Below are positions 14,885-63,531 of a DNA stretch of 64,000 nucleotides, in pieces (the stretch's first letter is position 1; each line of letters opens with the position of its first letter). The position numbers and the translations under genes were made by a program. Source of the stretch: an uncultured Pelagibacteraceae bacterium (lineage in GTDB: Bacteria; Pseudomonadota; Alphaproteobacteria; Pelagibacterales; Pelagibacteraceae); the NCBI GenBank assembly GCA_902587155.1, contig CACIKE010000002.1, positions 56,001 to 120,000 on the forward strand, read 5' to 3'. The notes under the pieces are model-generated. The model was not told the origin of the DNA and did not search any database. It saw only the letters and a program-made list of their open reading frames with translations.

Positions 14885-14958
14885 TGGTGCTCCCACCCTG
14901 TACTGACCAGGGAACTAGTCCTTACCAAGGACTTGTTATGCCATTTAACTACAGGAGC
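14885..14958 (-). tRNA. tRNA-Thr (GGT)
   Basis: Folds as GCTCCTG-TA-GTTA-AATGGCA-TAAC-A-AGTCC-TTGGTAA-GGACT-AGTT-CCCTG-GTCAGTA-CAGGG-TGGGAGC-A-CCA; anticodon GGT, encoded CCA. Confidence 0.88.
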
Positions 14959-19082: not shown

Positions 19083-19157
19083 GCCTCGGTAGCTCAGGAG
19101 TAGAGCAGAGCCCTGAAAAGGCTTGTGTCGGAGGTGCGAATCCTTCCCGAGGCACCA
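19083..19157 (+). tRNA. tRNA-Phe (GAA)
   Basis: GCCTCGG-TA-GCTC-AGGAGTA-GAGC-A-GAGCC-CTGAAAA-GGCTT-GTGTC-GGAGG-TGCGAAT-CCTTC-CCGAGGC-A-CCA. Confidence 0.9.
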
Positions 19158-19445: not shown

Positions 19446-19460
19446 TTTAAATATTTTACA

Positions 19461-19499
19461 AGGGCGTTTTCTCAGAAATAAGAAAACGTCCTTTTTTTT
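19461..19499 (+). terminator. Rho-independent terminator of the cold-shock gene
   Basis: 12-bp stem AGGGCGTTTTCT / AGAAAACGTCCT with loop CAGAAATA, followed by a T run. Confidence 0.9.
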
Positions 19500-19538
19500 G
19501 GGGTTGAATAATTTCAATTTTTGTTTAAAACGCTGCTC

Positions 19539-19640
19539 ATGAATAAAAATGAGACCAATTACAGATTAAACTCAGGTACTCTTAGACTTGCTCTTAGAGG
19601 AACTAATAGAGGTGTGCAAGCTCATTTTCACGCTGGCTAA
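19539..19640 (+). CDS. possible 33-aa small ORF (or structured RNA)
   Basis: MNKNETNYRLNSGTLRLALRGTNRGVQAHFHAG, isolated between the csp terminator and tRNA-His; no recognised family. Confidence 0.35.
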   Translation: MNKNETNYRLNSGTLRLALRGTNRGVQAHFHAG

Positions 19641-19709
19641 AGCTAGCGAATAATCACTTATATTATAATTTTAAATAACAACAAAATAAGATAAAACAAA
19701 AAAGGATAT

Positions 19710-19783
19710 GCCTTGATGGTGAAATAGTATCACGTCGGTTTGTGGATCCGAAGTCGTAGGAGCGTAACCTACTCAAGGTACCA
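19710..19783 (+). tRNA. tRNA-His (GTG), A73, no G-1
   Basis: GCCTTGA-TG-GTGA-AATAGTA-TCAC-G-TCGGT-TTGTGGA-TCCGA-AGTC-GTAGG-AGCGTAA-CCTAC-TCAAGGT-A-CCA; anticodon GTG. Confidence 0.88.
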
Positions 19784-19787
19784 AAAA

Positions 19788-21185
19788 ATGAATAAAGAAA
19801 ATAAATTAATTCCTGGATTACCCTCAGGTTTTGAAGACAGATGGAATAAAAAATTACTTCTCAAAAAAAAATTATTAAGGGTTGTTGAGAAAAATTTTAT
19901 TAAATATGGATTTGATCCATTAGAAACACCATCATTTGAAATTAGTGAGAATATAGGCTCCTTTCTCGCAGAGGATGAGAATAATCCTATGTCTGATGTG
20001 TTTACATTTGATGATGGTGAAAAGAATATTACTTTAAGATATGATTTATCAAGCCCACTTGCTAGATTTGTTGCACAGAATAGTCAAGAGCTTCCTTCAA
20101 TATATAAAAGATATGCAATTCAAAATGTATTTAGAAATGAAAAATCTGGAAATGCCAGGTATAGGGAATTTACTCAAGCAGATTGTGATATAGTTGGAAA
20201 CGTTAATCCAGCTCAAGCCAATGCCGAACTGTGTAATTTGATCTCAAACACTTTAGTAGATTGTGGTCTAAAAAAAGATCAGTTTACTATTAATGTTAGT
20301 AACAGAAAAATCGTTCAAGGTCTGATTGAGGATTTGAAAATTGAAAAAGATAAACAAATCAAAGTAATGAGAGCTATAGATAAACTCGATAAACCAGGAT
20401 TTGGTTTAAAGGGTGTCGAAGAATTATTAAAAAAAGAGAGAAAAGATAAAAGTGGAGCTATAACAAAAGGAGCAAACCTAAGTGATGTTCAAGCTTCAAA
20501 AATCTTAAATTTTTTAAAGATTAAAGATTTAAAGGAACTTAAAGAAAATTTTAAAAATCCTGTTACCCAAGAGGGAATTAAAGAATTAGAAGAATTATTT
20601 GAAGTTTTAATCTTTGGAAATTATTCCGATCGAGTAAAAACTAATTTTACGATAGTAAGAGGCTTAGATTATTACGATGGGTTTTGTGTTGAAACAAATC
20701 TAAATTTTAAAGCAAAAAATATTAAAGGTAAAGAAGTTGATATTGGAAGTATTTGCTCAGGCGGACAGTATAATAAATTAATTTCAAGATTTAAGGGTGT
20801 AGATATTCCAGGGACAGGTGTGAGCATTGGTGTTGATAGATTGCTATTTGCAATGATGCAATTAAATCAAATAGAAGTTGATAAACAAAATCCAGTTATT
20901 GTTTGTGTAATGGATGAAAAATATTTAAAAAATTATTACGAAATTTTAGATAATTTAAGAAAAAATAATATCAATTCTGAAATATTTTTGGATAGTAAAA
21001 GAAATCTTGGTAAGCAACTTACTTATGCTAACAAAAGAGAATGTCCAGTCGCAGTTATCTGCGGTGAAAATGAATTTAAAGATAATAAAATAACATTAAA
21101 AAATTTACTTGGGGCTAAAGGGGAAAATAACCAAATTACATTTTCAAAAGAAAATTTAATAAATGAAATCAAAAAATTTATCTAA
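19788..21185 (+). CDS. hisS: histidyl-tRNA synthetase (alphaproteobacterial-type)
   Basis: LRYDLSSPLARFVAQN, IVRGLDYYDGFCVE, GTGVSIGVDRLL; ATG at 19788 (the track start at 19740 is inside tRNA-His). Confidence 0.93.
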   Translation: MNKENKLIPGLPSGFEDRWNKKLLLKKKLLRVVEKNFIKYGFDPLETPSFEISENIGSFLAEDENNPMSDVFTFDDGEKNITLRYDLSSPLARFVAQNSQELPSIYKRYAIQNVFRNEKSGNARYREFTQADCDIVGNVNPAQANAELCNLISNTLVDCGLKKDQFTINVSNRKIVQGLIEDLKIEKDKQIKVMRAIDKLDKPGFGLKGVEELLKKERKDKSGAITKGANLSDVQASKILNFLKIKDLKELKENFKNPVTQEGIKELEELFEVLIFGNYSDRVKTNFTIVRGLDYYDGFCVETNLNFKAKNIKGKEVDIGSICSGGQYNKLISRFKGVDIPGTGVSIGVDRLLFAMMQLNQIEVDKQNPVIVCVMDEKYLKNYYEILDNLRKNNINSEIFLDSKRNLGKQLTYANKRECPVAVICGENEFKDNKITLKNLLGAKGENNQITFSKENLINEIKKFI

Positions 21186-22215
21186 CAAAATCCTTAGATC
21201 AGTTCAGTCTAAAGGATTTAAATATATTGAATTACCATCAGTTATTGAGACTAATCATATAGTACAAAGATCTGGTGAAAGTTTTAGAAAATTTATTTTT
21301 TCATTTAAAGATCAGACAGGAAATGAATTATGTTTAAGACCTGACCTTACCATTGCTTCTTGTCTTAGATATCTAAAAAACAATTTAAAGGGTAAAGAAA
21401 AAATATTTTATAGCGGACAGGCTTATAGAAAATCTCAAAATAAAAAGGACTCAATAATCCGAAATCAAGTTGGTTTTGAGATTATAGGATCAAAAGATGA
21501 AAAAAATGATGACAAAGAAATAATAGATACATCACTTAAATCACTAAAAAATTTGAAATACTCAACTGGCACACTCACTATTGGCAATGTGGAAATTTTT
21601 AATCTTGTAATATCTAAATTAGATATACCGAAAAGATGGAAATTAAGACTTACAAGACATTTTTGGCGAGAAGATTATTTCAGTGATTTACTAAAAAGAT
21701 TAGAGACAAATTCTGATGTAGATCCAACTATCGTTGAAGTTGATAAAAGACGATATTTAAAAATGTTAAAGGATAATCAATCATCAATTGTTGCAGGAAG
21801 AACATTAAAAGAAATTTTAGAAAGGTTTAATAAAAAGATTAAGGATCCAAGAAGAGCAAGTAAAGGAAGTAATACATCGAAAATCATTAAAGAGTTTCTA
21901 AAAATTAAATGTCCAATAAATGAAGCTGCAAAGGAATTAAATAAATTCTTTAAAAAACATAAAATAAACCTTTTAGTTGATCAGAAATATTTTCCTGTCT
22001 CAAAAAATAAAATATCTAAATTGAATGTGGTTTTCTCGTCAGCCTTCGGTAGACAATTGGAGTATTACACTGGCATAGTTTTTAAAATAGATATTAAATT
22101 AAAGTCGAAAATTATTAATTGTTGTAATGGTGGTCGTTATGACAAATTAATTTCGGATCTTGGTTCAAAGAAACAAACACCAGCAGTTGGAGCAGCTTTT
22201 AATTTGAATTATTAA
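21163..22215 (+). CDS. hisZ: ATP phosphoribosyltransferase regulatory subunit
   Basis: HisRS-like paralogue LCLRPDLTIASCLRYL, between hisS and hisG. Confidence 0.85.
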   Translation: MKSKNLSNKILRSVQSKGFKYIELPSVIETNHIVQRSGESFRKFIFSFKDQTGNELCLRPDLTIASCLRYLKNNLKGKEKIFYSGQAYRKSQNKKDSIIRNQVGFEIIGSKDEKNDDKEIIDTSLKSLKNLKYSTGTLTIGNVEIFNLVISKLDIPKRWKLRLTRHFWREDYFSDLLKRLETNSDVDPTIVEVDKRRYLKMLKDNQSSIVAGRTLKEILERFNKKIKDPRRASKGSNTSKIIKEFLKIKCPINEAAKELNKFFKKHKINLLVDQKYFPVSKNKISKLNVVFSSAFGRQLEYYTGIVFKIDIKLKSKIINCCNGGRYDKLISDLGSKKQTPAVGAAFNLNY

Positions 22216-22217
22216 TC

Positions 22218-22904
22218 ATGAAAAATTTAATGAATATAGGAATACCAAGTAAGGGACGGCTAAGAAAAGATGTTTTAAAAATTTTTACAAAAAAAAGATT
22301 AAAGCTGATTTCTGAGCGAGGGGAAAGAGATTTGATTGGTTCAATAAAAAATAAATTAAACATAAAAATTTTATATTTGCACGCTAGAGAAATTATTGAA
22401 AGATTAGGAGATGGTTCTTTAGATATTGGCTTTTCTGGTTTTGATTTATTAAAAGAAAGTGAGATAAATATCCAAAACAAAATAAATGTTATTAAAAAAC
22501 TTGATTTTGGAAATGCTAATCTAGTTGTAGCTATACCTGATCCTTGGATTGATGTTCAAACAATAGCTGACCTAGAAGAAATTGCATTTGAATTTAGAGA
22601 TAAAAAGAAAAAAAGATTAAGAGTTGCAACTAAGTATCCAAATTTAACCAGGGATTTTTTATTTTCTAAAGGTGTTACTCAATTTAAATTGGTTGATAGT
22701 TTAGGAGCAACTGAGGCGTACCCTTTTACTGGTTCAGCTGAACTAATTACAGATATAACATCTACAGGTGAGACTCTTAGAGCGAATAACCTACGTATAT
22801 TGAAAGATGGAGAAATCTTAAAATCTCAAGCTTGTATTTTTACTTCAAAAAAAAATAATAAAAAAAAAGGTTTAAAAAACTTTGTTAAATTACTTTCTAA
22901 GTAA
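22218..22904 (+). CDS. hisG: ATP phosphoribosyltransferase, short form
   Basis: NIGIPSKGRLRKDVL, VATKYPNLTRDFL, DITSTGETLRANNL. Confidence 0.93.
   Translation: MKNLMNIGIPSKGRLRKDVLKIFTKKRLKLISERGERDLIGSIKNKLNIKILYLHAREIIERLGDGSLDIGFSGFDLLKESEINIQNKINVIKKLDFGNANLVVAIPDPWIDVQTIADLEEIAFEFRDKKKKRLRVATKYPNLTRDFLFSKGVTQFKLVDSLGATEAYPFTGSAELITDITSTGETLRANNLRILKDGEILKSQACIFTSKKNNKKKGLKNFVKLLSK

Positions 22905-62054: not shown

Positions 62055-63531
<1,477 letters not shown>

Follow-up and report, generated by a model that had tools for sequence, protein, structure and literature searches.

The enterobacterial his operon is controlled by an attenuator with a leader peptide, HisL. In mitochondria, tRNAs punctuate the transcripts and their excision produces leaderless mRNAs, while in E. 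coli the synthetase gene thrS is autoregulated through a tRNA-like leader. Few bacterial groups on Earth are as abundant as SAR11, which is thought to regulate little. As for the tRNA itself, the RRCH-type tRNA-His/HisRS pair of Alphaproteobacteria, as described in PMC3937112 and PMC9976931, has A73 and no G-1.

Here we analyse a 64,000-nucleotide stretch of DNA (the window) from an uncultured Pelagibacteraceae bacterium, in which a His leader peptide, an attenuator-like hairpin, tRNA-His, hisS, hisZ and hisG follow one another as what would be a histidine-supply unit. We propose that a ribosome-mediated histidine attenuator probably controls tRNA-His–hisS–hisZ–hisG, with excision of the tRNA leaving hisS near-leaderless. 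An earlier note on this DNA dealt with the junction between tRNA-His and hisS; the conserved regulatory signal, a His leader ORF with a hairpin, lies upstream of that junction and was absent from the note. The features of the locus are the following:

19460-19493, plus strand: intrinsic terminator belonging to the cold-shock gene upstream (13-pair stem, then a T run)
19504-19531, plus strand: predicted promoter P1 (TTGAAT, 16 nt, TAAAAC), with a conserved TTGNA box
19539-19640, plus strand: ORF of the histidine leader peptide, MNKNETNYRLNSGTLRLALRGTNRGVQAHFHAG; all 117 loci have a short ORF here, encoding 2-6 His
19631-19648, plus strand: attenuator-like hairpin CGCTGGC-TAAA-GCTAGCG, beginning at the last His codon (dG -9.8 kcal/mol)
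19687-19692, plus strand: possible internal promoter P2, shortly before the tRNA, with a -10-like TAAGAT and the conserved motif TARKATAA
19710-19783, plus strand: tRNA-His(GTG) with encoded CCA, A18/G55 elbow variant (Rfam RF00005, 50.6 bits)
19784-19787, plus strand: AAAA linker from the tRNA CCA to the hisS start codon (4-7 nt and 96% A over all 117 loci)
19788-21185, plus strand: hisS, histidyl-tRNA synthetase (PF13393; TIGR00442 above its curated cut-off)
21163-22215, plus strand: hisZ, ATP phosphoribosyltransferase regulatory subunit, overlapping hisS (NF008953, 394 bits against a cut-off of 384)
22218-22904, plus strand: hisG, ATP phosphoribosyltransferase catalytic subunit (TIGR00070 above cut-off; PF01634)

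Results

The junction between tRNA-His and hisS

The terminator at 19460-19493 separates the cold-shock gene from the his unit, and the leader ORF sits between this terminator and tRNA-His. At the other end of the tRNA the window reads ...CAAGGT-A-CCA-AAAA-ATG. The encoded CCA occupies 19781-19783 and the hisS ATG 19788-19790, which confirms the 4-nt spacing reported in the earlier note; of the span 19703-19800 given there, 19710-19783 is indeed the tRNA body, and 19703-19709 are merely flank. The arrangement is conserved across the family. Among 117 loci taken from 80 named SAR11 genomes and their relatives, and in seven genera of the Pelagibacteraceae, the start codon directly follows the 3' end of the tRNA in every case, so that the synteny check for which the note had called turned out in its favour. 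The linker measures 4 nt in 89 loci, 5 in 20, 6 in 5 and 7 in 3; it reads AAAA in 83 of the 117, and A accounts for 485 of all 507 linker bases.

Since 4-7 nt are too short to hold a promoter, hisS must share its transcript with tRNA-His, in line with the co-transcription that the note had considered. A downstream HisRS start, which the note had named as a way for the short spacing to fail, was also looked for: between the ATG at 19788 and the conserved LPSGFEDR motif there is no further in-frame start codon, and the ATG itself recurs in relatives.

Outside the family the junction looks different. In the three sister-family loci examined tRNA-His is found upstream of hisS but at a distance of 1.4-2.5 kb, and the flanks fetched for 28 other alphaproteobacterial hisS loci contain no tRNA. 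Because neither group has the adjacency, it most likely arose within the Pelagibacteraceae. No report of a tRNA-His–hisS arrangement was found in the open-access literature.

We also considered a tRNA and hisS travelling together as a cassette, and rejected it: the type of the tRNA changes 15-17 times on the hisD, hisS, hisZ and hisG trees alike, and therefore its linkage to hisS is no tighter than to the other genes. One genome (L064) encodes a HisRS that is 96% identical to that of the window, yet its tRNA-His is wholly different (GCTCCCG...), which indicates that tRNA alleles have been exchanged without hisS.

Short spacers and Shine-Dalgarno sites

Short linkers between a tRNA and the next gene recur in these genomes, so that the spacing alone reflects streamlining. 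In the closed relative G062 (99% completeness), six other tRNAs (Gln, Leu(TAA), Leu(CAA), Leu(TAG), Pro and Glu) are located 2-10 nt before Pfam-supported genes, whose products are a CCA/polyA polymerase-like protein, NAD kinase, an AMP-binding protein, trigger factor, NDUS4 and a GIY-YIG protein. The loci with such gaps are L192, L194, L195, L196, L199 and L179, and tRNA-Gln stands 3 nt ahead of the CCA/polyA polymerase-like gene. In the window, the median gap between same-strand ORFs is 2 nt. Both observations favour plain streamlining, by which the tRNA would abut hisS for want of spacers, co-transcription and a near-leaderless hisS being by-products without regulation. This explanation leaves unaccounted for, however, the conserved His leader and hairpin described below, as well as the fact that throughout the family the tRNA is paired with the synthetase that charges it, and we consider it unlikely.

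A strong Shine-Dalgarno 4-mer precedes only 1 of 50 ORFs of the window against 2.2 expected from shuffles, a count to be read as an estimate since ORF starts were assigned mechanically. The 3' end of the 16S rRNA (window 62055-63529) retains the normal anti-Shine-Dalgarno CCTCCTTT. With 49 of the 50 ORFs devoid of such a site, the lack of room for one before hisS, to which the earlier note had pointed, is no special constraint and carries no weight. Its expectation that excision of the tRNA would leave hisS almost leaderless fares better, being supported by the 4-7 nt linker: about 4 nt would remain before the AUG in the window, and hisS would then be translated from a near-leaderless mRNA.

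The tRNA-His gene

The Rfam tRNA model (RF00005) recognises a cloverleaf at 19710-19780, scoring 50.6 bits (cut-off 29); ARAGORN made no call for tRNA-His at 19710-19783. The anticodon GTG is at 19742-19744, the CCA end, U72 and A73 are present, and G-1 is not encoded. The His identity set of Caulobacter, as cited in PMC9976931, has been experimentally defined as A73, U72 and the anticodon GUG; this set is carried by tRNA-His in 117/117 loci, where U72, A73 and the GTG anticodon are invariant.

The closed relative yields 33 tRNA-model matches, exactly one of which is a tRNA-His, of the same type and likewise before hisS. In the window's own genome, which is 78% complete, no second tRNA-His was found among 30 tRNA matches. 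Because the closed relative has a single tRNA-His and it is of this type, 19710-19783 is a working tRNA and a mere tRNA mimic is ruled out; it has to be cut out and aminoacylated, and its role cannot be that of a hisS leader only, one of the options offered in the earlier note. Remolding from another isotype was likewise rejected, as no tRNA of the own genome is close to this tRNA-His type.

The note had further suggested that HisRS might bind its own leader. The unprocessed tRNA would then be the hisS leader and HisRS would control its own translation upon binding it, as ThrRS does on the thrS mRNA. The geometry permits this, the tRNA fold ending 4 nt before the AUG, and the identity elements are invariant. 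Against it stand not only the necessary excision of a sole tRNA-His but also the 24 distinct tRNA-His sequences that precede hisS in the 117 loci, the ordinary fold stability of the tRNA with the hisS start (z -0.56) and the similar linkers before non-synthetase genes. No sequence evidence for HisRS binding was found, and we regard this model as very improbable indeed.

An A18/G55 elbow

The D-loop of the window tRNA-His is AATAGTA (19723-19729) and its T-loop AGCGTAA (19761-19767), with the elbow site at 19726-19727; the canonical combination of G18 and G19 with U54, U55 and C56 is lacking. We nevertheless keep the assignment to tRNA-His, because a gene of this type is the sole tRNA-His of the closed relative. 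According to reviews, U55/Psi55 is conserved universally and G18 to a high degree. In the 117 loci (24 distinct sequences), tRNA-His has A18/G55 in 43 and G18/U55 in 74, with no mixed case, and tRNA-Phe of the same locus (window 19083-19157) follows the same rule (54 and 15 of 69, mixed 0). Furthermore, tRNA-Val(GAC) of the own genome (L004:1374-1448) has loops identical to those of the window tRNA-His, and in both tRNA-His and tRNA-Val A54/U58 accompanies A18/G55.

On the hisD tree the elbow state changes about 8 times each for tRNA-His and tRNA-Phe. The well-supported independent contrasts, 4 for His and 6 for Phe, are all concordant (sign test 0.125 and 0.031, respectively). A class-level pattern search with one D-loop form of the A18/G55 tRNA returned 0 of 114 other genomes, the control (own genome, 115 in total) being positive, and no report of an A18/G55 elbow was found in the open-access literature.

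Among close relatives (L035, L038, L083 and others), the tRNA-Phe upstream of hisS likewise falls into several sequence types that differ strongly from one another. The tRNA-Thr(GGT) at window 14885-14958 has an odd T-loop, GTCAGTA, with G18 and G19 kept.

A histidine leader ORF upstream of the tRNA

Upstream of the genes for tRNA-His, its synthetase and histidine synthesis lies a short ORF rich in His codons. Its place is fixed, and at least two His are encoded by such an ORF in 117/117 loci, compared with 2.7% of Markov-resampled sequences under the same selection and 4/117 on the reverse strand; the 117 loci are related, and do not represent 117 independent events. The His residues are clustered at the end of the leader (e.g. 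HRHHFHAG, THFHAG, HTHHHTHAKH). Variation in the terminal His codons falls at position 3, positions 1 and 2 being nearly fixed; this is a coding constraint.

Presence in all loci and a genuine codon constraint at its end would also suit a functional small His-rich protein, perhaps metal-binding. The leader peptides, however, vary in length and differ almost everywhere outside the His end, only the terminal His codons beside the hairpin being kept, and no match was found in Pfam or NCBIfam. Moreover, short His leaders without a tRNA precede hisS in the sister family (MFKFKHYHYHI, MFNFKHHTAHI, MIKLLHHHYHI), and at about 11 residues they contain little beyond the His codons. We thus hold a small protein to be improbable and prefer a leader peptide read for its His codons. 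In one sister-family locus (L253) the order hisS-hisZ-hisG follows the leader. Judging from these relatives, the leader is likely the older element, the tRNA having been placed later between it and hisS.

The hairpin and the candidate promoters

In 109 of 117 loci a hairpin containing three or more G-C pairs begins at the last His codon, where a stalled ribosome would affect it; the figure for shuffles is 0.9%. In the eight remaining loci, read by eye, a His codon is inside the hairpin region and was missed by the automatic rule. The stop codon of the leader falls inside the hairpin or 0-7 nt beyond it in nearly all loci. The 8 nt that follow the hairpin include 4-6 T in 69 of 111 loci; in the clade of the window no U tract follows (AATAATCACTTA), and intrinsic termination there is therefore doubtful. 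Mutually exclusive antiterminator pairing was not found, as duplexes between upstream sequence and the hairpin arm are weaker than in shuffles. We therefore claim that the element probably works like an attenuator, and not that it is a classic member of that class.

In 113 of 117 loci a TTGNA box precedes the leader ATG by 32-42 nt, mostly 34-36 nt, compared with 11% in shuffles. A box so placed predicts that the leader transcript begins at its AUG or close by. The motif of P2, TARKATAA, also occurs in 113 of 117 loci (10% in shuffles); in 112 of these a gap of 13-18 nt separates its end from the tRNA, and no clear -35 was seen. A promoter type shared by tRNA genes was rejected, since the other tRNAs of the closed relative have no -10 at a common distance. 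This promoter-like P2 speaks against the attenuator, which it would bypass.

Discussion

In the mechanism that we favour, transcription would most likely start from P1. When charged tRNA-His is scarce, the ribosome would stall at the terminal His codons and mask the 5' arm of the hairpin, and RNA polymerase would proceed into tRNA-His and hisS-hisZ-hisG. With ample His-tRNA, the ribosome would complete the leader and depart, the hairpin would form and transcription would be curtailed; termination might be Rho-dependent, or the hairpin might act by pausing. P2, if used, would supply basal tRNA-His. The tRNA would then be cut out by RNase P and a 3' endonuclease, and hisS would be translated without a Shine-Dalgarno site, as are nearly all genes of the window.

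A wider reading joins three things. A His attenuator would govern a tRNA gene along with the cognate synthetase and the enzyme that opens histidine synthesis; maturation of the tRNA, being cut from the front of the common transcript, would be coupled in a single step to leaderless translation of the synthetase mRNA; and in that same tRNA a natural A18·G55 stands in place of the near-universal G18·U55 elbow contact. We put this combination forward tentatively, at a little short of an even chance. If true, a family-wide His leader over tRNA-His, its synthetase and HisZ/HisG would provide a compact feedback on charged tRNA, and the supply of tRNA-His, of its enzyme and of histidine may be tuned together. 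Excision of tRNAs could also define mRNA starts in a genome nearly without Shine-Dalgarno sites and without spacers. The joint switch of the elbow positions is a natural experiment on the extent to which the tRNA elbow is indispensable.

Comparison with known systems

The SAR11 tRNA-His shares A73, U72, the GUG anticodon and an unencoded G-1 with the RRCH type. It differs in its direct link to hisS, seen in the Pelagibacteraceae only, and in the existence of several tRNA types, some of them A18/G55. As in thrS, a tRNA-shaped RNA is found directly upstream of the start codon of a synthetase, but here it is a genuine tRNA, the only one for His, and not a mimic, and signs of autoregulation were not found. 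With mitochondrial punctuation the locus has in common an encoded tRNA that abuts a start codon, so that processing should set the 5' end of the mRNA; SAR11 is, in contrast, a free-living bacterium in which the CCA is encoded and local promoters and processing of the tRNA are predicted.

The hisL attenuator is similar in its short leader with clustered His codons beside an RNA hairpin, upstream of hisG. Unlike hisL, the SAR11 leader would control tRNA-His, hisS, hisZ and hisG, its predicted mRNA begins at the AUG or close to it, and its single hairpin abuts the last His codon, with no antiterminator found. The leader stop codon, located in or after the hairpin, also departs from the classic trp/his layout. 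Within this amino-acid attenuator-like system, the unusual element would be the co-regulated tRNA.
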